From an uncultured Deferribacteres bacterium (GTDB lineage: Bacteria > Zhuqueibacterota > JdFR-76 > DREG01), in contig CAJVYQ010000023.1 of NCBI GenBank assembly GCA_913009825.1, forward strand, positions 1-64,000: a stretch of 64,000 nt of DNA. The letters run 5' to 3'. The position numbers and the translations under genes were made by a program. Under the pieces are notes generated by a model. The model ran no database searches, had not been told where the DNA came from, and saw only the letters and a list, made by a program, of their open reading frames with translations. Below, piece after piece: positions 1 through 57,551 of the stretch (positions are counted from its first letter, which is position 1; every line of letters starts with the position of its first letter).

Positions 1-490
1 TTGCCGTGAACGACAAGGCTAAGAAATAAAAGGGCGCTAAAGCGTCCTATTTACGATAGCATCCTTCAGGATGCTTTCATGTCTTAGCCTGAGGGGTTCA
101 CTCTCAGGCGACCTGAATAGTTACGATAAATTATATGTTAGCAAAAACTCTTGAATTACATTTTTGAATTTGGCACACGCAGGAACAAATAATTTGGCAT
201 TACTATTGCCATTTAAAATAATTTGAAAAGGTTTAGGCTGTAGATTATTTGAATACCGGATTCAGGGATCGTCGGAATATTCCGATACTTTGTAATTATT
301 CAATTATGTTTGTTAATTGTTGCACCATAAGCTTCCAACTGAGTTTATCCTGAGCATGTCGAAGGGTTCAGACCGGACAAAACAACCACACTGAACGGAG
401 TCGAAGTATGATTCCTTCAAAGTTAGGGAACATATCTGAATAGTTACGATACTTTTTATTATGTAAAAATCAAAATCGAAAGGGATAGAT
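1..490. other. Non-coding region with palindromic repeats
   Basis: No gene is visible here. Positions 16-90 are bounded by a perfect 9-bp inverted repeat (aggctaaga/tcttagcct) enclosing smaller hairpins such as gcatcc-ttca-ggatgc. It is followed by a right-hand element end CCTGAATAGTTAC ending at 124, whose left partner would lie outside the window. A second element occupies 292-447 and is listed separately. The last 40 bases lead into the first gene; no convincing promoter could be picked out. Confidence 0.7.
292..447. mobile_element. MITE-like element, GTAAC ends, perfect 8-bp target duplication
   Basis: The left end is GTAATTATTCAA (292-303) and the right end CTGAATAGTTAC (436-447), an imperfect inverted pair. 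The flanks are identical 8-mers GATACTTT at 284-291 and 448-455, the mark of a transposition event. The interior carries a hairpin of the common type 'ttatcctgagcatgtcgaag ... gaacggagtcgaag'. It contains no reading frame. It ends 43 bases upstream of the first gene, so it may influence its expression. Confidence 0.75.
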
Positions 491-5101: not shown

Positions 5102-7234
5102 ATGACACTCAAACTAAGTGAAAAGAAAAGAAAAGTTATTGCCGTTATCGGCATCTCTTTTGTTGTTTTGCTGCTCACCGGTTTTTTTTCGGTCTTTTCG
5201 CCGGTAAGAAATCTGGAATTGAAAGTGCTTAATCAGCAGTTCAGCTCACGCGGGCCGATGACGGACCGGGATACTTCCCTGGTCATTGTCGCCATCGATG
5301 ACCAGACCTTTGCCAGCATGCCGATGAAATGGCCCTATCCCCGCAGCGTTTACGGCAAACTGATCCGCAACCTGAACGAAGCGGGCGCCAAATTGATTGT
5401 CTTCGATTTGGAATTCACCGAACCGACGGTGAACGATCCGGCACAGGATGATTCCCTCGCTGCTGCCGCGCGCAGATTCGGAAATGTGATTTTTGCCGGC
5501 AAACTGGTTTCCGAATTCGGTTCTTCCATGACGCTGAACCAGTATACTTTACCGCCCATTCCCCAATTGTTACGGTCTTCCCCGGTGGATTCGTCGGTTT
5601 TACCCTGGGGGTTGGTAAATATTGTGGAAGATGAAGACAGCTTTTTTCGGCGATATTTTTTGAGTAAAACAGTTGCCGGTAAACGATTTTATCCTCTTTC
5701 CATGTTGACGGCTAAAAAGTTATTGCACGTTCCGGATGATTCAGTAAGAGAAGATGCGCACTATTTTTATCTGGGAAATGTGGCCATCCCCAAAGCTACA
5801 TCTGAAACCATGTATATCAATTTTGCCGGGCCGGCCAAAACCTTCAATACTTACTCTCTGTCCAATATTCTGGACGATTTCGAGTTTGATTTGGGCGAAG
5901 GTGAAGATACCGACATCTTCGAGTTACATAAAATGTGGGGAACATTTAAAGATAAAATTGTCTTTGTCGGCGCTTCCGCCGAGGAATTGCAGGATACAAA
6001 ATTCACGCCGTTTTTTAAATACGGCGGCGTGGCCAGAAAAATGCCCGGTGTGGAAACCCATGTAAACGCCTTGAATACAATCCTGACCGGCAATTTTCTT
6101 AATAATGCTCCCCAATTGTTGGTATTTGTGCTTATTCTTCTGTTTGTTTTTTTAACCGGCGGCGCTGTGATCATGCTGAAACCCCTGAAAGCAGGAGCAA
6201 TCGCTATATTTTTTGTCCTTTTATTCACCGCCCTGACTCATGTGAGCTTTGTCAAATGGGAACTGATCCTGCCGCTCATTACCCCTCTTCTGTCGATCGG
6301 TTTGAGTTATCTGGGTAATACTGCTTATCTCTACGCCACGGAAAAAAAAGAAAAGGTTCGGTATCGCAAAATATTTCAGCAGTACGTTTCTAAAAGTGTT
6401 GTTGAAGAGATGCTGGGTTCCGGCAAATACCCCAGTTTTGGCGGTGAGCGAAAGGAACTATCCGTACTCTTTTCCGATATTCGCTCTTTCACTAGTTTTT
6501 CCGAACAATTTCCGCCCGAGGAGGTTGTGAAAAGATTGTCTGATTACCTGACGGACATGACGGAAATTGTGATTCAACATGAAGGTACTTTGGATAAATT
6601 CGTCGGTGATGAGATTATGGCTGTTTTCGGCGCGCCGCTGTTCTACCCGACCCATGCGGAAAATGCCTGTCGCGCCGCATTCCGGATGATCGATGTGCTG
6701 GTAAAACATCAGAAAGATTATGAAAAAAAAGGGGAAAAATATTTCAACATTGGCGTGGGCATCAATACCGGCGATATGGTAGTCGGCAATCTCGGTTCGC
6801 AACAACTCTTTGATTACACAGTCATTGGCGACGCAGTGAATTTAGGCGCGCGGCTGGAGGGCTTGAACAAATTTTACGGAACTCATATTATCATTTCGGA
6901 AAGTACCAAACAACAGGCAGGGAAAACGGTTGTGGTACGTGAATTGGATACGGTGAAAGTAAAAGGCAAAGATGAACCGATCCAAATTTACGAATTACTG
7001 GGCATCGACAGTATCGGCAAAGAGGAGCAGACCTGGCTGGTTGAAGCGTTTCAGAGGGGTTTAACTTATTATGCCGAAAAAAAATGGTACAAGAGTTTGT
7101 TGGAGATGAACCAGATTCTGAAGCATTTCCCCACTGACGGTCCTGCCAAACTATACATAAAACGCTGCCTGGAAATGATCGAAAATCCTCCCGAACGAGA
7201 CTGGCAGCCGGTTTATAAATTTGATACAAAATAA
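5102..7234 (+). CDS. CHASE2-domain adenylate cyclase (class III)
   Basis: A 710-residue membrane sensor-cyclase. One N-terminal membrane helix (about 13-34) is followed by an extracytoplasmic CHASE2 domain (about 35-330), three more helices (about 340-415) and a class III nucleotide cyclase domain (about 450-640). The metal-binding Asp lies in SDIRSFT (near residue 457). The substrate-selecting Lys lies in LDKFVGDEIM (near 497) and the Asp in FDYTVIGD (near 570); the Lys/Asp pair indicates ATP and therefore cAMP as product. The last 65 residues are helical and TPR-like. FecR/CHASE2 neighbours suggest that an envelope signal controls cAMP synthesis. No clear ribosome site precedes the ATG. The TAA stop lies inside the left end of a repeat element. 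Confidence 0.88.
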   Translation: MTLKLSEKKRKVIAVIGISFVVLLLTGFFSVFSPVRNLELKVLNQQFSSRGPMTDRDTSLVIVAIDDQTFASMPMKWPYPRSVYGKLIRNLNEAGAKLIVFDLEFTEPTVNDPAQDDSLAAAARRFGNVIFAGKLVSEFGSSMTLNQYTLPPIPQLLRSSPVDSSVLPWGLVNIVEDEDSFFRRYFLSKTVAGKRFYPLSMLTAKKLLHVPDDSVREDAHYFYLGNVAIPKATSETMYINFAGPAKTFNTYSLSNILDDFEFDLGEGEDTDIFELHKMWGTFKDKIVFVGASAEELQDTKFTPFFKYGGVARKMPGVETHVNALNTILTGNFLNNAPQLLVFVLILLFVFLTGGAVIMLKPLKAGAIAIFFVLLFTALTHVSFVKWELILPLITPLLSIGLSYLGNTAYLYATEKKEKVRYRKIFQQYVSKSVVEEMLGSGKYPSFGGERKELSVLFSDIRSFTSFSEQFPPEEVVKRLSDYLTDMTEIVIQHEGTLDKFVGDEIMAVFGAPLFYPTHAENACRAAFRMIDVLVKHQKDYEKKGEKYFNIGVGINTGDMVVGNLGSQQLFDYTVIGDAVNLGARLEGLNKFYGTHIIISESTKQQAGKTVVVRELDTVKVKGKDEPIQIYELLGIDSIGKEEQTWLVEAFQRGLTYYAEKKWYKSLLEMNQILKHFPTDGPAKLYIKRCLEMIENPPERDWQPVYKFDTK

Positions 7235-7409
7235 CTTTTCGGGTATGCTCTATGTATTAACTTTTATCACGCTTCGACTCCGCTCAGCATGGCTTTTAAG
7301 ATCAGACTAAGCTCTTCGTCAAGTTTATCCTGAACTTGTTGAAGGGCTCAGGATAAACTCAGTCGAAGGCTTATCTCACATCAGGAAACCGGTATACCTG
7401 AATAGTGAC
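7231..7409. mobile_element. GTAAC-type element overlapping the cyclase stop codon
   Basis: The left end ATAACTTTTCGGGTATGC (7231-7248) matches the ends of the neighbouring element at 4952 (GTAACCGTTCAGGTATGC). The right end is CCTGAATAGTGAC (7397-7409). The interior has the hairpin text 'ttatcctgaacttgttgaag ... caggataaactcagtcgaag'. The TAA within the left end (7232-7234) is the stop codon of the cyclase gene. No flanking duplication is recognisable, so the insertion is old or rearranged. Confidence 0.5.
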
Positions 7410-7495
7410 AATTTTTGCCACAAAGGCACTAAGTGACTAAAAATGGCAATATAAGGGCGTTTAAACTCAGTCTGTTTTATTAATTCTAATATTTA

Positions 7496-7612
7496 CCAAT
7501 AGTGAGCGATTCTCTTATTTTTGAGCTTGTTCTTGCTACTAAACGGATTTTCATTTTTAATGTAAATTCGGTTGGCGATTCAGCGAATCGCCCTACAATC
7601 GCTCAATTCAGG
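7496..7612. mobile_element. 117-bp element of the CCTAAATTGAGCG family, overlaps nuclease 3' end
   Basis: The ends are CCAATAGTGAGCGATTCT (7496-7513) and AATCGCTCAATTCAGG (7597-7612). The body aligns by eye with the reverse complement of the element at 34557-34684, including the hairpin ggcgattcagcgaatcgcc. No flanking duplication is seen. The end of the minus-strand nuclease gene (7580 onwards) runs into this element, so the last codons and stop of that gene are repeat-derived. Confidence 0.6.
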
Positions 7613-8572
7613 GTGAAGATATTCCGCTTGAAAACCGGCCTGTTGCAAATATTCGGGAAATTCGGGGAAACCATGCAGTGTGTATATTTGCTTCGGATCG
7701 ACTGCCCGGGCAAATTCGATCAATTCATCAAAATCCGCATGATCGCTCAACGGTAAAGCATAATCGGAATAAACCCGGTTCCATGAATAATGGTTGTTTT
7801 CCGCCCAGCCGGAGAGGAATATGGTTTGATAGTGCACATACCCGAAAGGGTTAAAATTTTTTACCTCATGTGGCGGGATGATAATTACGTCGTGCTCCGG
7901 GTCAATTTTATCTTGAAATAAGAAACAATTAGGGAATTCCATACCGAATTTTTTATAAATTTTTACAATCTTCCATACAGATTGGTGAACCAGAACATTT
8001 TGACCGCTTTGTTCAAGCATTTTCATCGCTTCCTGCGCTTTTCCCAGCGAGTAGGCCAGAATGACCGGCACCGCACCATTTTTTTGAATCTCTTCAATTT
8101 TATCATGCAATAAACGGGAGAGATTGGCTCTCGCTTGCCGGAAATGGTAAGACGGATGTCCGAACGTGGATTCCATGATAAGAATGTCTGCGTGGGGAAT
8201 TTCGATCTCCGCCGAGGTGAACCCCCTTTGTAGCTTAAAATCGCCGGTGTAGAGCAGGCGTAATCCTTCCTGTTCCACCAAAATCATGGCCGAGCCCAAA
8301 ATGTGTCCGGCGGGAAACAGGGTAATCGTTGCCTTTTTCAGTTCGAATGGTTGGTTAAAACCAAGCGGAATAAATTCAGGTTTTTTGACCCGTTTTTCAA
8401 ATCGCAATTTGAAAAATTCAATGGTTGGCGCTGTGGCCAATATTTTTTTGTGATTACGCAGATGATCCCCGTGTCCGTGACTGATAAAGGAAAACGGCAC
8501 CACCCGGTGGGCGTCCAGAAACAGGTCGTATTCTCTTAATTTAATCCCTTTTGCGTGATAATAAAACAAGTG
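7580..8572 (-). CDS. MBL-fold nuclease (ligase-associated exonuclease-like)
   Basis: A metallo-beta-lactamase-fold hydrolase of about 330 residues, related to DNA/RNA-processing MBL nucleases (the ligase-associated exonuclease and CPSF-like group). The zinc motif HGHGDH lies about 30 residues from the start. Further ligands appear in AGHILGSA and in YTGDF, and LPLSDHADF and TLHGFPE follow near the C-terminus. TTG at 8572 is chosen because aaggag sits six bases upstream; a TTG at 8599 would add nine residues with no ribosome site. The last ten residues (PELSDCRAIR) and the TGA are encoded by the repeat element at 7496-7612, so the natural C-terminus has been replaced. No DNA ligase gene is adjacent. 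Confidence 0.8.
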   Translation of the reverse strand, partial: HLFYYHAKGIKLREYDLFLDAHRVVPFSFISHGHGDHLRNHKKILATAPTIEFFKLRFEKRVKKPEFIPLGFNQPFELKKATITLFPAGHILGSAMILVEQEGLRLLYTGDFKLQRGFTSAEIEIPHADILIMESTFGHPSYHFRQARANLSRLLHDKIEEIQKNGAVPVILAYSLGKAQEAMKMLEQSGQNVLVHQSVWKIVKIYKKFGMEFPNCFLFQDKIDPEHDVIIIPPHEVKNFNPFGYVHYQTIFLSGWAENNHYSWNRVYSDYALPLSDHADFDELIEFARAVDPKQIYTLHGFPEFPEYLQQAGFQAEYLHPELSDCRAIR

Positions 8573-11313: not shown

Positions 11314-11835
11314 ATGATTAAAATAGATAAAGCGGTCTCTTCTCCCGGAAAAATAGAATCGATGAGCCTTTCACAGGACGATACTTTTCGTTTCGCTGAC
11401 ATACTGGCACAATTCCTTTACCCCGGCGTCATTGTAGCTCTGTTTGGCCGGTTGGGAAGCGGGAAAACCGCGCTGGTTAAAGGATTTTGTCACGGGTTGG
11501 GTGTGCAGGAGGAGGTGACCAGTCCATCTTACACCATCATGAACATTTACAAAGGACGGCTGCCGGTTTATCATTTTGATTTCTACCGGCTGTACCAAAA
11601 CACAGATTGGAACGAATTGGGTTTGGACGAATACTTGTTTGGCGAAGGAGTTTCGTTTATCGAATGGCCGGATCGTTTGGGGAATTGGCTGCCCGGGGAA
11701 AGTGTGGAAATCACCATTCAGCGTTTGCGTCCTTACACGGAAGCAAATGTCGATCACAGAAAAATCATGGTGAAGAATCTGAAAGGGGCGGATTTGTTAC
11801 AACATAGTGATAATGGAATTATAGCCAAAATTTAG
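11314..11835 (+). CDS. tsaE: tRNA t6A biosynthesis ATPase TsaE
   Basis: A 173-residue P-loop ATPase that works with TsaB and TsaD in forming N6-threonylcarbamoyladenosine at position 37 of ANN-decoding tRNAs. The Walker A motif GRLGSGKT is at residues 45-52. SPSYTIMN (70-77) and YHFDFYRL are the family's conserved switch-like motifs, and EWPDRL follows near residue 116. An internal ATG (codon 17) would give a length closer to the family norm of about 150, so the first residues are uncertain. tsaB follows after a 380-base repeat-rich gap; tsaD is not in the window. Confidence 0.92.
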   Translation: MIKIDKAVSSPGKIESMSLSQDDTFRFADILAQFLYPGVIVALFGRLGSGKTALVKGFCHGLGVQEEVTSPSYTIMNIYKGRLPVYHFDFYRLYQNTDWNELGLDEYLFGEGVSFIEWPDRLGNWLPGESVEITIQRLRPYTEANVDHRKIMVKNLKGADLLQHSDNGIIAKI

Positions 11836-12218
11836 TAATTGTAGGTCGATTCGCCGAATCGACTTACAGATTTACGGTAAAAAGGGAAACAAGCGTTTTT
11901 CGCATAAAAACAAAATTGAGAACAGGAAAATCGCTCTATTTTGGGGAGTATATTTATTACAATAAATGATATATTTTGGCGCTTTGAAAATATCTAATTT
12001 GCAATGAGGGAGAGATTTATGGGATCCTTCGACTCCATCCCGATAAAAACCATCGGGATTCTGCTCTGAGTGACAGCGTCGAATTTTGTCATACTGATTC
12101 TTTCGACAAGCTCAGGATAAACGAAGTCGAAGCATCTCGCAGCATGCAGGCAAAGAAATCGTCAATTTCAATGAACTAAAATGTTGCCAATAAATCAGGT
12201 GTCATGCGGATATAAAAT
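11836..12218. repeat. Gap between tsaE and tsaB with hairpin repeats
   Basis: Positions 11841-11867 hold a hairpin, gtcgattc-gcc-gaatcgac, related to the gcgattcgctgaatcgc hairpins elsewhere. Positions 12028-12140 hold two arms of the common 'ccttcgactccatcccgat...' and 'ttcgacaagctcaggataaa' type. The text gaactaaaatgttgc (12173-12187) resembles the right end of GTAAC-type elements (actaaagtgttac). No complete element with flanking duplications could be delimited, and there is no gene. Confidence 0.5.
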
Positions 12219-29465: not shown

Positions 29466-29783
29466 ACAGGCGGATACCGGGAGAACGCCTCACCGGATTC
29501 AACAATACCGGAGCAGGGAATGACATCGTTTAAACTCATTTAAGATTGAAAAGGTACACTTCAAAAAATTAAAATGTTACAAAAACCTAAATTGAGCGAT
29601 TCTTAGCTTGAAACAACCGCCCAAAGAGTTTTGTCATTCTGCCTGCCCGACCGCAGGCGGGAAAGAATCTTGTTAGTTCTGTGCGTTAAACTAACAAGAT
29701 TCCTACGGAATGACATTAGAATCGCTCAATTCAGGAAAAATAAAAAATCGGCAGATTAAGCAACTAATTCTTAGGAGGTACGG
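29466..29783. other. Gap between bamA and skp carrying a 150-bp element
   Basis: The first 115 bases show nothing but an element-like right end, attaaaatgttac (29568-29580). The 150-bp element at 29586-29735 fills most of the rest. A strong ribosome site, taggaggt (29772-29779), precedes the skp GTG start. Confidence 0.6.
29586..29735. mobile_element. 150-bp MITE-like element, copy 1
   Basis: The ends are CCTAAATTGAGCGATTCT (29586-29603) and AGAATCGCTCAATTCAGG (29718-29735), inverted repeats with one mismatch in 18. The interior folds into nested hairpins (gtcattc ... gaatgac; gaatcttgttagtt ... aactaacaagattc; cctgc ... gcagg). The flanks are AAAAA on both sides (29581-29585, 29736-29740), a 5-bp duplication that is weak alone because of low complexity but agrees with the other copies. 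Confidence 0.85.
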
Positions 29784-34556: not shown

Positions 34557-34684
34557 CCTAAATTGAGCGATTGTAGGGCGATTCGCTGAATCGCCAACTT
34601 GATTTCTATGGATTTACCTGAAAAAATGAAAACCCGTTAGCCGCTTAAAACAAACTCAAAAACAGATGAATCGCTCAATTTAGC
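34557..34684. mobile_element. 128-bp element, CCTAAATTGAGCG ends
   Basis: The ends are CCTAAATTGAGCGATTG (34557-34573) and AATCGCTCAATTTAGC (34669-34684), with the internal hairpin ggcgattc-gct-gaatcgcc. The flanks TCAGA (34552-34556) and TCCGA (34685-34689) agree at 4 of 5 positions. It is a distinct subfamily from the 150-bp copies: the ends are shared but the interior differs. A relative in opposite orientation lies at 7496-7612. Confidence 0.65.
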
Positions 34685-48857: not shown

Positions 48858-49222
48858 TCATTGCCCCTTAAATTACCGCCTCGTGGCTCACCGCGGTGTG
48901 AAGATAGTGATTTTAATGGAGTATTTTTTAATTCAACCCTAAATTGAGCGATTCTTAGTTTGAAACAACCACCCAAAGAGTTTTGTCATTCTGCCTGCCC
49001 GACCGCAGGCGGGAAAGAATCTTGTTAGTTCTGTGCACTAAACCAACAAGATTCCTACGGAATGACATGAGAATCGCTCAATTCAGGTCAACAATATTAT
49101 GAGAGGGGGAAGGGGAGTGTAAGACATTTGTGCTATAATTTGATCTGTCGGATTTATCGGGGGAATGAAATATAAAATGAAATCGGGGAAAAAAATGATG
49201 ACGAAGTGTGAGGTGAAAGCAG
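48858..49222. other. Gap with a 150-bp element
   Basis: The gap holds the element at 48938-49087 and about 135 bases of sequence before the HDOD regulator without recognisable signals. The text cctcgtggctcaccgcggtg (48889-48908) resembles the reverse complement of text at 16778-16797. Confidence 0.6.
48938..49087. mobile_element. 150-bp MITE-like element, copy 2
   Basis: Same orientation and length as the copy at 29586, with about six differences by eye. The ends are CCTAAATTGAGCGATTCT and AGAATCGCTCAATTCAGG. The flanks are identical 5-mers TCAAC (48933-48937 and 49088-49092). It is non-coding and folds into nested hairpins. Confidence 0.88.
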
Positions 49223-50452
49223 ATGAGTGAGATAAAAATTCTGTTTGTGGATGACGAACCCAACATCCTGGGGGGATTAAGAAGAATGCTGCGCAATATG
49301 CGGCATGAGTGGCAGATGAAATTTGTCGGCAGCGGACAGGAGGCGCTGCAGGCGCTTCAGGAAGAACCGTTCGACGTTATCGTTTCCGATATGCGTATGC
49401 CGGGAATGAACGGCGCCGAGTTGTTAATCGAAGTGATGAATCGTTATCCCCGGATGATTCGCATTATCCTTTCCGGCTATACGGATCAGGATTTAATCCT
49501 GAAAGCGGTTCGTCCGGCGCACCAGTATCTTTCCAAACCTTCCAATGCAGATAAGATCATAAACACAATCAAACGGGCCGGGAATTTAAGAAATCTGCTG
49601 AAAAATGAAAATCTGCTCAAAATTGTGGCACAGGTTGATACCTTGCCCAGCCTGCCGGATCTGTACTGGGAAATTTTACATGAATTACGTTCCGAAAATT
49701 CATCGTTACAGAAAATAGAGAAAATTATTTCCCGGGATGTGGGAATGACGGCAAAAATATTACAGTTAGTAAATTCAGCTTTTTTTGGTCTGCCCCGTCA
49801 CATTTCCATTCCTGCTCAGGCGGTTAGTCTTTTAGGGATCGATATCATTAAAACGCTGGTTCTGTCGGTACAGATTTTCTCGGAATCTGATGGAGGAGAG
49901 ATCGCTGGTTTCTCACTTAAAGAGATTATAGACCATAGTTTTTATACCGCAAAAATGGCCAAAGAGATCGCCAGAGCGGAAACCGGAAATAATATGGTTA
50001 TCGATGACGCTTACATGGCGGGAGTTCTGCACGATGCCGGCAAAATGATCTTATGCCATAATTTTCCGCAGCAGTATGCGGAAGTTTTAGCTTTGACGAA
50101 ACGGAAAGAGATACCGGAATTTATGGCAGAAAAGGAAATTTTCGGCACGTCCCACAGCAAAGTTGGGGCGTATCTCATGGGTCTGTGGGGCATGTCCGAT
50201 GCCGTTGTGGAAGATATTGCGTATCATCACAACCCTGCCGCAGCGCCGGACCGGGAATTTTCCTCCCTGACTGCGCTTTATGTGGCGAATATTTTTGAAA
50301 AAAATTTAAACGGTTCTCATGATAGCAGCAAAAATAGTATGGATTATAACTATCTGACCGGGATGGGAATGGAAAATCATGTGGATGATTGGCAAGAATT
50401 GTGCAGGAAAGTTAAAAATAGGAGTAACTATTCATGGAGCTTACCTGAATAA
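49223..50452 (+). CDS. Response regulator with HDOD output domain
   Basis: A 409-residue regulator: a receiver (1-120; Asp56 in SDMRMPG) followed by an HDOD domain (about 140-340), a metal-independent relative of HD phosphohydrolases used as a signalling scaffold. TAKILQLVNSAFFGLPRHISIPAQAVSLLG is the HDOD core. A C-terminal segment keeps HD-like residues (VLHDAGKMIL, YHHNP), so some phosphohydrolase function is not excluded. The last nine residues (SNYSWSLPE) and the TAA are encoded by a 33-bp mini-element (50424-50456), so this C-terminus is not ancestral. The next regulator starts 18 bases on. Confidence 0.88.
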   Translation: MSEIKILFVDDEPNILGGLRRMLRNMRHEWQMKFVGSGQEALQALQEEPFDVIVSDMRMPGMNGAELLIEVMNRYPRMIRIILSGYTDQDLILKAVRPAHQYLSKPSNADKIINTIKRAGNLRNLLKNENLLKIVAQVDTLPSLPDLYWEILHELRSENSSLQKIEKIISRDVGMTAKILQLVNSAFFGLPRHISIPAQAVSLLGIDIIKTLVLSVQIFSESDGGEIAGFSLKEIIDHSFYTAKMAKEIARAETGNNMVIDDAYMAGVLHDAGKMILCHNFPQQYAEVLALTKRKEIPEFMAEKEIFGTSHSKVGAYLMGLWGMSDAVVEDIAYHHNPAAAPDREFSSLTALYVANIFEKNLNGSHDSSKNSMDYNYLTGMGMENHVDDWQELCRKVKNRSNYSWSLPE

Positions 50453-50456
50453 TTAC
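50424..50456. mobile_element. 33-bp minimal GTAAC-type element with 8-bp flanking repeats
   Basis: GTAACTATTCAT and CCTGAATAATTAC face each other across only eight bases. The flanking 8-mers AAATAGGA (50416-50423) and AGATAGGA (50457-50464) agree at 7 of 8 positions. It is read as the last codons of the HDOD regulator and provides its TAA stop (50450-50452). Confidence 0.65.
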
Positions 50457-50470
50457 AGATAGGAAAAAAG

Positions 50471-51619
50471 ATGTCAGAGAAAATTTTGTTTGTCGATGAT
50501 GAGTTGAATATATTGCATTCCATCCGGCGTCAGTTGCGCAAAAATTTCAATATGGAAACGGCTCTTGGCGGTGAAGAAGGACTGGTAAAAATAGAGCAGA
50601 ATGGCCCTTTTGCTGTTGTGGTTTCCGATTTTCGGATGCCCGGTCTGAACGGTGTGCAATTCTTGGCAAAAGTTCGTAATGTTGCTCCCGATACCGTGCG
50701 CATGATACTTACCGGTTATGCAGATGTTACAACGACAATAACCGCAGTGAACGAAGGGAATATTTTCCGTTTTCTCACCAAACCGTGCCCCACCGAAAAA
50801 CTACTGACCGCTCTTTCGGCCGGTTTACATCAATATCAATTGATAACTGCCGAGAAAGAACTGCTGGAAAAAACCTTAAAAGGCAGTGTTAAAATTTTAA
50901 CGGAAATCATGGCGTTGGTAAATCCGGAGGCGTTTGGCCGGTCGGCGCGGATCCAACGGTTGGTGAAAAATATTGCCGAAGAGATGCATTTGCCGGATAT
51001 CTGGGAATTGGAAACGGCCGCCATGTTATCCCAGATAGGCTATATCATATTGTCCGAAACGACCATGAAGAAAATCAAATCCGGACAACCTCTAACGAGA
51101 GAAGAGATGAAACTGATAGATAAACATGCTTCTGTTGCAGCCAATTTATTGAGCAATATCCCGAGAATGAAAAAAATCGCCGATGCCATTGCATACCAGG
51201 ATAAGCATTACGACGGCAGCGGTTCTCCGCCTGATTCCGTTAAAGAGAAAGCCATCCCGGTTGGCGCCAGGTTGTTGAAAGTTACACTGGATTTTGACCG
51301 GTTGGAGTCGGGAGGATGGTTCAATGATGAAGCTTTGCAAATTCTGGAAAATCGCAACGGTGTTTATGATCTCTCCATACTGCATCTCCTGAAAAGAATC
51401 GTCTTGGCAAAGAAAACGGATCAACATGTTAAAAGTGTAAAATTGGCCCAGCTTACTCCAAATATGATTTTTGAAGAAGATGTCAAATCCGACCGGGGAG
51501 TGCTGCTGATTTCCCGCGGACAGGAGGCCGGTGTGATCATGATCGAGCGGTTGAAAAATTATGCCAAAACCTCCGGCATCAAACAACCGATTTTGGTGTC
51601 CGTTGCTGCGGGGAAATAA
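50471..51619 (+). CDS. Response regulator with degenerate HD-GYP-like domain
   Basis: A 382-residue protein: a receiver (1-120; Asp53 in VSDFRMPG) and an HD-GYP-like domain (about 145-300). Key residues are lost. The first His is replaced around Arg157 (GRSARIQRLV), the HD pair by Ser187-Gln188 (AMLSQIGYIIL), and the HH pair by Gln243-Asp244. Only the tail DGSGSP (248-253) of the HDGSGYP signature remains. It is therefore unlikely to hydrolyse cyclic-di-GMP and may act as a binding or scaffold protein. Residues 305-382 are an extra domain. Its receiver is similar to those of the two flanking regulators, suggesting tandem duplication. Confidence 0.85.
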   Translation: MSEKILFVDDELNILHSIRRQLRKNFNMETALGGEEGLVKIEQNGPFAVVVSDFRMPGLNGVQFLAKVRNVAPDTVRMILTGYADVTTTITAVNEGNIFRFLTKPCPTEKLLTALSAGLHQYQLITAEKELLEKTLKGSVKILTEIMALVNPEAFGRSARIQRLVKNIAEEMHLPDIWELETAAMLSQIGYIILSETTMKKIKSGQPLTREEMKLIDKHASVAANLLSNIPRMKKIADAIAYQDKHYDGSGSPPDSVKEKAIPVGARLLKVTLDFDRLESGGWFNDEALQILENRNGVYDLSILHLLKRIVLAKKTDQHVKSVKLAQLTPNMIFEEDVKSDRGVLLISRGQEAGVIMIERLKNYAKTSGIKQPILVSVAAGK

Positions 51620-51659
51620 GTAGCTTGTCCTCATTTATAAAAATAAGGCGGTAGAAAGT

Positions 51660-52250
51660 ATGTCACAAAAAATTCTCTTTGTCGATGATGAACCGAACGT
51701 GATTAATTCTCTGAGACGAACCTTGCAGAAAGAGTCTTTTGAGATACTGAGCGCTTTTTCAGGACAGGAAGCTCTGCAGCTTTTATCCGAACACATTGTC
51801 GATGTAGTTATTTCCGATGAACAGATGCCGGGGATGTCCGGCACGGAGCTGTTGAGCCGGATAAGCAAAAGCTATCCGGATACGGTCCGGATTGTTTTAA
51901 CCGGAAACGCAAATATCGATATGGCCGTCCGGGCGATTAACGAGGGACAAATTTACCGTTTCTTACGCAAACCCTGCCACGAATTAGAATTGATTGCCAT
52001 CATTCATGCAGCTCTACAGCACAGAGAATTTTTGCAGAAAACCAAAGAGCTGCTGAAACTCTACCGGCAGCAATCCGGTTATGTGGCGCAATTGGAGAAC
52101 CGTTTCCCCGGTATCTCCGACGTGCAAAAAGATGAAAAAGGCACTGTTGTCCTGACAGATATCCCGGATAATTATGAGAACCTGATCAAAGAAATAGAGA
52201 ATGAACTGGGTAAATCCCGAAGAAAAAAGCAGTACCAATTGTTGGGTTGA
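51660..52250 (+). CDS. Response regulator with short coiled tail
   Basis: A 196-residue protein: a receiver (1-125; Asp53 in ISDEQMPG, Lys in LRKPC) and a tail of about 70 residues. The tail starts with a helix (HREFLQKTKELLKLYRQQ) and has the segment ENRFPGISDVQKDEKGTVVLTD, a conserved short tail seen with other regulators of this type. There is no DNA-binding, enzymatic or GGDEF domain, so it probably signals by protein contact or acts as a phosphate sink. It closes the five-gene signalling island; the three regulator genes are 18 and 40 bases apart. Confidence 0.85.
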   Translation: MSQKILFVDDEPNVINSLRRTLQKESFEILSAFSGQEALQLLSEHIVDVVISDEQMPGMSGTELLSRISKSYPDTVRIVLTGNANIDMAVRAINEGQIYRFLRKPCHELELIAIIHAALQHREFLQKTKELLKLYRQQSGYVAQLENRFPGISDVQKDEKGTVVLTDIPDNYENLIKEIENELGKSRRKKQYQLLG

Positions 52251-52845
52251 ACCCAACAACTGCAATAAGTAATCCATACTCATTTCTCATTTTTGATAGC
52301 CAACAATTTAATTCTACAGATATTTATCCCCAAAATGCGGCGCTTTTATATTGAAAAATTGGCGGGGAAATATCCGGTTTGAACCGGTTTCTGCCGTGTT
52401 GTTGATTTAAAATTGGCGCCTGGAATAAAAAAAAATGGTGATACTTTAGTTTTTTGCAAAATTTCACCAACCATCTATGAAACAACTCTAAAAACATACC
52501 GGATGAATGGGAAGGAAATATTTTTCATTTTAGCTTAAACCTAAATTGAGCGATTCTTATGTCATTCCGTAGGAATCTTATTGGTTTAGTGCAAAGGATT
52601 AAAAAGATTCTTTCCCGCCTGCGGTCGGGCAGGCAGAATGACAAAACTCTTTGGGTGGTTATCGCAAGCTAAAAATCGCTCAATTTAGGTTAAATAAAAA
52701 ATGTTGGCAAGACGTACTGATACGAACTGCTCAGAAATAAAAATAGTTGCAAATAAAGATATTTGTTACTTTTTATAATTTATCCATCGAATTTATTTTT
52801 AACCCGGATTTTTTAAAAAAAATTTTAACAGAATACGGAGAGAAT
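52251..52845. other. 595-bp gap with a 150-bp element
   Basis: The first 190 bases show nothing recognisable. The text gatactttagttttttgcaaaa (52440-52461) resembles the left end of the 61149 element. The 150-bp element at 52540-52689 follows, then 156 bases up to the next gene, which has a ggagag ribosome site. An open frame from 52747 extends the next gene upstream but lacks a signal-peptide-type start. Confidence 0.55.
52540..52689. mobile_element. 150-bp MITE-like element, copy 3 (inverted)
   Basis: Opposite orientation to copies 1 and 2. The ends are CCTAAATTGAGCGATTCTTA and AAAAATCGCTCAATTTAGG. The flanks are identical 5-mers TTAAA (52535-52539 and 52690-52694). It differs from copy 4 at only about four positions. 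Confidence 0.88.
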
Positions 52846-53703: not shown

Positions 53704-53748
53704 TAAAAGATAGGAATCCTGATGATATTTTTAAATAAGGTGGATATC

Positions 53749-54621
53749 ATGAAAAAATACCCGCATGTAAAATCGGTTTTTGAGGCAATCTTGCCCCTGC
53801 TTTTTTTGTTGACCTCCTGTTCTTATAAGGAATTGCTCAACAAAGCCAACCTGAAAAATCCTGAGGTGGAAGTAGAGAAAGTTCGTTTTTCCGGCCTTTC
53901 TTTTGATTCTGTGAATCTGCTTTTCGATCTGAAAATTAAAAATCCCAACGGAATCGGGGTCAACCTTGCCGGATTCGATTACGATTTTCAGATCAACGAC
54001 AACTCGTTTGTAAGCGGCAGACAGGAAAACGGACTGAAAATTGTTGCCGGGGGAGAAAATGTGATCGGTTTGCCCGTCACGTTAAAATTTAAAGAACTTT
54101 TTCAGACTTACAAAACTCTCCGGGATCAGGATAGTTTGGCCTACAAATTGGCCTGTTCTTTCTCGTTTGATCTGCCGGTTTTTGGCGCCGTCAAAGTGCC
54201 GGTGAGTAAATCCGGGATGCTGCCGGTTTTGAAATTACCGTCTGTTTCCCTTGCCGGGGTGAAATTGAACAAGCTCAGTTTCTCCGGTGCGGATATGAAA
54301 CTTCAGGTGAAATTGAAAAATGACAACCCGTTCAAATTGTTTGTCGGCAAATTTAAATATGAATTCGCCGGGAATAGCAAAAACTGGATTTCGGGTGTCA
54401 ATGAGAAAAGCATGACGGTCGGTGGAAAAGGCGAATCGATCATCGAAATTCCGGTGTCGTTAAATTTTCTACAGGCCGGTCGTTCGGTTTACCAATTGCT
54501 GACGGGCGACCGGAATTTGAATTACAAACTTCTCGGCAGTGTTGATTTTTCTACTTCATTGCCAATTATCGGCGAGGTAAAGCTCCTGTTCGACCAATCC
54601 GGACAGGTGAAAATTAGGTAA
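53749..54621 (+). CDS. LEA14-like (LEA type 2) lipoprotein
   Basis: A 290-residue lipoprotein. The lipobox LLTSC places the lipidated Cys at residue 24. Two LEA-type-2/WHy-like beta-sandwich repeats follow (about 35-155 and 165-285): VRFSGLSFDSVNLLFDLKIKNPNG and LNKLSFSGADMKLQVKLKNDNPF are the matching openings. Such proteins bind hydrophobic molecules or other envelope proteins; the role here is unknown. ATG 53749 is preferred for the aaggtgg ribosome site and signal peptide. The stop codon TAA (54619-54621) lies in the left end of a mobile element. Removing the element and one 8-bp repeat restores an end VKISK instead of VKIR. Confidence 0.8.
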   Translation: MKKYPHVKSVFEAILPLLFLLTSCSYKELLNKANLKNPEVEVEKVRFSGLSFDSVNLLFDLKIKNPNGIGVNLAGFDYDFQINDNSFVSGRQENGLKIVAGGENVIGLPVTLKFKELFQTYKTLRDQDSLAYKLACSFSFDLPVFGAVKVPVSKSGMLPVLKLPSVSLAGVKLNKLSFSGADMKLQVKLKNDNPFKLFVGKFKYEFAGNSKNWISGVNEKSMTVGGKGESIIEIPVSLNFLQAGRSVYQLLTGDRNLNYKLLGSVDFSTSLPIIGEVKLLFDQSGQVKIR

Positions 54622-54965
54622 CTATTCAGGTTGCCCGCTAATATCGCTAAAAAACGAGAATCGTTAACTATTTTGTCCTATTCGTATGATTTCGTGTAAT
54701 TCGCGGGCTGAACAGGCAGACGATTTTTTCAATTTCTCTGCGCTCTCCGCGTCTCTGCGTTAAAAAAACAGGCGCTTTAAAACGCAGAGACGCAGAGAAC
54801 GCAAAGGAAGCGGATTTGTTCAAAAAACTAAAGTGTTACGGTATTGTCACTACTCAGGCAGCCCGCGAAAGACTCAAAAAAAAACAGGAAAAAAGTTAGA
54901 TGAGATCATTCGATTGTTTCGTGTGTTTTCTGCCTGTGTCAGACAGACGTGAGCTGAATAGTTAC
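54618..54965. mobile_element. 348-bp composite GTAAC-type element, copy 2, perfect 8-bp duplication
   Basis: It begins GTAACTATTCAGG and ends GCTGAATAGTTAC. The flanks are identical 8-mers AAAATTAG (54610-54617 and 54966-54973). The modules are the same as in the copy at 44975, and the two differ at only a few positions by eye. It lands on the end of the preceding lipoprotein gene and provides its stop codon. Confidence 0.88.
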
Positions 54966-57401: not shown

Positions 57402-57551
57402 CCTAAATTGAGTGATTTTTATGTCATTCCGTAGGAATCTTATTGGTTTAGTACAAAGGATTAAAAAGATTCTTTCCCGCCTGCGGTCGGGCAGGCAGAA
57501 TGACAAAACTCTTTGGGTGGTTATCGCAAGCTAAGAATCGCTCAATTTAGG
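57402..57551. mobile_element. 150-bp MITE-like element, copy 4 (inverted)
   Basis: Same orientation as copy 3 and nearly identical to it. The ends are CCTAAATTGAGTGATTT and AGAATCGCTCAATTTAGG. The flanks are identical 5-mers TTTTA (57397-57401 and 57552-57556). The rest of this gap (57557-57824) shows no further features; agaggg precedes the next gene. Confidence 0.88.

Follow-up and report, generated by a model that had tools for sequence, protein, structure and literature searches.

In the window, by which we mean the whole stretch of 64,000 nucleotides that was analysed, a cyclase gene and a nuclease gene on opposite strands both end inside short repeat elements, which belong to two different families named A and B here.

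5102..7234, + strand: CHASE2-Guanylate_cyc cyclase gene, stop TAA (7232-7234) in a family B end
7231..7409, unstranded: family B MITE-like element of 179 nt, TIR GTAACTATTCAGGT diverged in this copy, no recognisable 8-bp TSD
7496..7612, unstranded: family A MITE of 117 nt, right end CCTGAATTGAGCGATT intact (read on the - strand), left end diverged, no TSD
7580..8569, - strand: MBL/RMMBL nuclease gene, last 10 codons and TGA (7580-7612) from the family A end

The Pfam domains CHASE2 and Guanylate_cyc are present in the cyclase with 168.6 and 84 bits, respectively. The alignment places the cyclase TAA at 7232-7234 on the second to fourth base of the family B end GTAACTATTCAGGT, with A-TAA-CTTTTCGGGT as the sequence at the stop, so that the position of this stop inside an element end, as stated in the initial annotation, holds. 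Over its full length the copy at 7231-7409 shows up to 80% identity to complete genome copies with the ends GTAACTATTCAGGT..ACCTGAATAGTTAC. As the cyclase orthologues finish at the identical residue with ..F(E/K/S)TK* (e.g. ..FETK* or ..FKTK*), the element stop occupies the place of the native stop and the predicted cyclase protein ends at its natural residue. The TAA may have been supplied by the element or may be a native TAA coinciding with the TAA of the TIR, and the two are indistinguishable. The span 7223-7612 given in the initial annotation joins two unrelated elements, with 7223-7230 being host DNA next to the B copy. A repeat of the type TTCGAC..GCTCAG / CTGAGC..GTCGAAG (window 7260-7370 and 12026-12132) makes up the inner part of some family B elements, and TTCGAC/GCTCAG at 7260-7370 was rejected as a third repeat family, being the inner part of the B copy at 7231-7409.

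For the nuclease (Pfam domains Lactamase_B_2 and RMMBL) the final 33 nt of the gene, CCTGAATTGAGCGATTGTAGGGCGATTCGCTGA, start exactly where the family A copy has its outer edge (7612) and read CCT GAA TTG AGC GAT TGT AGG GCG ATT CGC TGA, which confirms the earlier claim that the last ten codons and the TGA (PELSDCRAIR*) are encoded by the copy at 7496-7612. This copy is ~91% identical to other family A copies. PELSDCRAIR is absent from nine nuclease orthologues, whose short tails mostly end in QLSLL or QLSLF, and judged from this protein comparison the orthologue-type tail has been replaced by the one from the element. As the copies at 7231-7409 and 7496-7612 are both devoid of a TSD, the pre-insertion sites of the two are not restorable. 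Relatives of the same taxonomic family share only ~55% identity at the cyclase and yielded no match to the nuclease or the LEA2 gene, and at such a distance there is no orthologous empty site at the DNA level.

Three further genes of the window end in elements, and additional family A copies are found in it:

11314..11835, + strand: TsaE gene, TAG in a degenerate family A copy
11825..11944, unstranded: degenerate family A copy
29586..29735, unstranded: family A copy, 150-nt form
34557..34684, unstranded: family A copy, 128 nt
48938..49087, unstranded: family A copy, 150-nt form
49223..50452, + strand: response regulator-HDOD gene, stop lying within the minimal 33-nt family B copy
50424..50456, unstranded: minimal family B copy of 33 nt consisting of two TIRs only, TSD AAATAGGA/AGATAGGA (7/8)
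52540..52689, unstranded: family A copy, 150-nt form
53722..54621, + strand: LEA_2 (lipoprotein) gene, TAA = bases 2-4 of a family B end
54618..54965, unstranded: family B element of 348 nt, perfect 8-bp TSD AAAATTAG
57402..57551, unstranded: family A copy, 150-nt form

Thus five of ~40 genes in the window end in elements (cyclase, nuclease, TsaE, HDOD and LEA2); the earlier count of at least four genes in 64 kb was right about element-derived stops being real and was an undercount. The most direct view of what an insertion does comes from LEA2, where joining the flanks by excision of 54618-54965 restores the empty site and gives ..QVKISK* in place of the present ..QVKIR*. Orthologues end in VKISR*, IKISR* and IKIKR*, the first two of which match this empty-site VKISK*, so the insertion cost LEA2 one residue. 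Compared with orthologues, as had been proposed initially, the C-termini therefore range from the natural last residue (cyclase) over the loss of a single residue (LEA2) to a replaced tail (nuclease). Excision of the 33-nt B copy from the HDOD gene predicts a different tail of ~12 codons beyond the insertion point in a non-conserved region, and the 33-nt copy at 50424-50456 either arose by deletion or represents a minimal mobile unit. The HDOD gene is also the first of consecutive response-regulator genes (RR-HDOD, RR-HD_5 and a third at 51660-52250) in window 49223-52250, and 51669-52073 of the third regulator matches the receiver domain of the first.

Both families are short and non-coding and have TIRs and a TSD of fixed length, as is typical for MITEs, and in 1.66 Mb we found 71 A and 63 B paired copies, mostly of 100-350 nt. 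The inverted ends of family A, CCTGAATTGAGCGATT, are 16 bp long and enclose copies of mostly 117-154 nt without coding capacity. A TSD of 5 bp was observed directly, being perfect in 46 of the 71 pairs while other lengths gave no signal (1.66 Mb), and the target is symmetric (TWWN-TNNNA-NWWA). The A end has 629 genome-wide matches against 3 control matches and is essentially private, with 457 end matches here and at most 4 in the relatives searched. At L111:1179-2980 (G000:C21) we observed an intact-looking 1802-bp IS having CCTAAATTGAGCGATT at both ends, which are A ends with one mismatch each, and encoding a 467-aa IS1380-family transposase (PF13701, 1e-19). As an IS of the same genome combines the ends of family A with an IS1380-type transposase, family A is an IS1380-type MITE, and from these shared ends the transposase of L111 probably mobilises it. 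Another A end lies on the opposite strand 5 nt from this IS (L111:1173), giving back-to-back A-type insertions around a TATTA-like target. Family A resembles IS1380-family ISs and their derived MITEs in ends that begin with CCT, in 5-bp TSDs, as also known as 5-bp DR for IS1247 of the IS1380 family (PMC3281130), and in the IS with the same TIR and PF13701 (DDE_Tnp_1_4). Unlike IS1380-family ISs it is short (mostly 117-154 nt), non-coding, present in several hundred copies and equipped with a near-private TIR.

Family B has the ends GTAACTATTCAGGT and an AT-rich target, and its 8-bp TSD is perfect in 28 of 63 pairs with no signal for other lengths (1.66 Mb). Its end gave 435 genome-wide matches against a single control match, and at most 14 in the relatives searched. 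IS66 ends begin with GTAA, and family B shares with them the GTAA end and the 8-bp TSD. Direct repeats of 8 bp have been described for the IS66 members ISPpa5a and ISPpa7 (PMC3281130). Unlike IS66-family systems, family B is accompanied in the draft genome neither by a match to the IS66 transposase (PF03050), an absence that is weak as the assembly breaks at B copies, nor by an autonomous parent, as no transposase was found enclosed by long B pairs. We therefore call family B IS66-like by resemblance only and do not assign an IS66 derivation to it from its ends and TSD. In contigs C1, C3, C8, C10, C16 and C23 (the last one with window 111-124) a perfect B end that points towards the contig start lies ~110-200 nt from it, which suggests that near-identical B copies interrupt the draft assembly, so that recent copies are under-represented.

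Stop codons are part of the ends of both families, namely CC-TGA and C-CTG-AAT-TGA in A and G-TAA in B. Read inward from the A end the three frames close at a median of 2, 7 and 30 nt, and from the B end at 1, 27 and 56 nt, so two of three frames are closed within 10 nt for A and one of three for B. The nuclease uses the third, slower frame of A, and cyclase and LEA2 use the fast frame of B. Within 40 nt 84% of the frames are closed by the A end, 62% by the B end and 53% by intergenic background.

The placement of both families was counted in a sample of 2.42 Mb (47% of the draft genome, 1680 genes), divided into a discovery set of 1.664 Mb with 1153 genes, on which the target model was fitted, and a separate hold-out of 0.757 Mb with 527 genes. 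Genes were called with a simple hexamer-based caller, and the same BLAST definition of elements was used for the observed count and for the rotation null. In the 2.42 Mb 30 of 1680 stop codons (1.8%) are entirely contained in an element, which is a floor as very degenerate or minimal copies (e.g. 50424-50456) escape the BLAST definition and B copies at assembly breaks are partly lost. Rotating the element track within contigs gave 50.0 +/- 6.5 covered stops, with 0 of 500 rotations as low as 30, and stops are therefore under-covered. The genome count of element-stop overlaps suggested with the initial annotation, run on these 2.42 Mb, accordingly shows no excess at stops. Within the window covered stops are locally frequent (4 for 40 genes, P = 0.004 compared with the remaining sequence), but this stretch was chosen by the reader of the sequence. 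Element sequence accounts for 13.9% of the intergenic bases, 0.036% of the CDS bases and 3.0% of all bases; around stops coverage rises smoothly from 0 at ~60 nt inside genes to a plateau at ~100 nt downstream without a peak at the stop, and around starts it is lower over the first 40 nt.

The depletion within genes was directly observed and is strong. In CDS more than 60 nt from the stop we found 0 A and 3 B insertions against target-weighted expectations of ~122 and ~137, which supports the part of the initial annotation that has insertions elsewhere removed by selection (3 insertions against ~260 expected). In the last 60 nt of the CDS, with positions taken from the present stop and not from the lost original one, there are 9 A and 8 B insertions against ~16 and ~18 expected with the same weighting. 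DNA adjacent to stops scores as a target ~4-fold above CDS interior and ~1.5-3-fold above DNA 80-300 nt downstream. We infer that selection and not target choice is behind most of the CDS depletion.

These target scores also speak for the opposite idea that the elements actively favour gene 3' ends, with a transposase recognising a stop-codon or terminator context, as do the TWW of the A target, which is compatible with TAA (some A TSDs are TAAAA with the native stop), and an excess of B at 0-10 nt after stops in the discovery set (13 against 3.9 expected after target weighting; near stops 17 against ~8 under a uniform-intergenic null). With target weighting the A excess is however not significant, neither in the discovery set (5 against 3.8) nor in the hold-out (4 against 1.5, P = 0.07), and the B peak is missing in the hold-out (1 against 1.7). 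Pooled over A and B and both sets, this bin holds 23 insertions against ~11 expected, driven by the discovery set, and the B excess, a post hoc peak, was rejected as an established result. Convergent gaps make up 7.7% of gap bases and received 10 of the 179 A ends, which is no enrichment, divergent gaps, in which no stop occurs, make up 11% and received 27, at least the share due to them, and stops are covered less than rotation predicts. Insertions at stops or gene 3' ends above the target-matched expectation were thus not found, and we consider active targeting of gene ends very unlikely. A milder version, in which the B transposase slightly prefers the first 10 nt after stops beyond AT-richness and the elements settle as new 3' ends, is unlikely as well.

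It could also be imagined that the ends were selected to carry stops for safe insertion, or that the host uses the elements as portable 3' ends consisting of stop and hairpin. The 84% of frames closed by the A end against 53% in the background would fit, but B with 62% is near background, convergent gaps are not preferred, and the A end resembles the end of an IS from the same genome, so transposase binding can explain its sequence; we regard this as highly improbable. That the overlaps are accidental open frames of a gene-calling artefact, with the true gene ends elsewhere, has a negligible probability: the gene caller used is a simple one, and weak scores (10-12) occur in a few of the 30 covered-stop cases, but all five window genes show Pfam domains and clear coding scores, and their orthologues align up to the overlap.

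The pattern is best explained, with a probability of about 0.88, by two lineage-private families of MITEs with AT-rich targets and stop-bearing ends together with purifying selection. Copies of A and B would have inserted mostly between genes at AT-rich targets. For a copy landing within the final few codons of a gene, the frame would end almost immediately at the cost of one residue or a short foreign tail, and such near-harmless copies at gene ends would be kept while those deeper in genes would be purged. From the two readings offered initially, selection against insertions elsewhere is retained and a preference for gene ends falls with the 30 against 50.0 +/- 6.5 covered stops, the convergent gaps and the unreplicated B peak; AT-rich targets and stop-rich ends had been omitted there.

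Stops supplied by elements are already published for other bacterial elements, and our addition is the placement test with hold-out. GTAG-REP elements are mostly intergenic, and their termini often supply a TAG stop codon to flanking ORFs (PMC3733652). They are 20-40 nt palindromes with RAYT-type tyrosine transposases, whereas A and B are longer MITEs with TIR and TSD, so that a single 20-40 nt palindrome, a GTAG tag and the lack of a TSD do not describe them. In Coxiella burnetii QMITE1 and QMITE2 share 1-50 bp with the 3' ends of functional genes (PMC5896051), whereas the enterobacterial RU-1 replaced a stop and C-terminus (PMC2759123). Both are likewise MITEs at gene 3' ends, although elements and hosts differ from A and B, and the relevant passages (PMC5896051, PMC2759123) give no placement null.

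For the genome studied here the remodelling of gene ends by MITEs is now quantified, with near-zero tolerance in gene interiors, partial tolerance in the last 20 codons and free insertion outside, and striking local coincidences of stops and repeats need no targeting. Proteins of this genome may carry C-termini of recent and foreign origin, which bears on annotation and on judging conserved tails such as the lost QLSLF-like motif of the nuclease. The second longest contig (G000:C2, 153 kb; GC 0.40-0.42) has no perfect A or B end among the matches listed, and two 20-kb stretches of it hold only 3 ends (<=2 mismatches) against ~10 expected; it may be a separate replicon, a genomic island or DNA of foreign origin.
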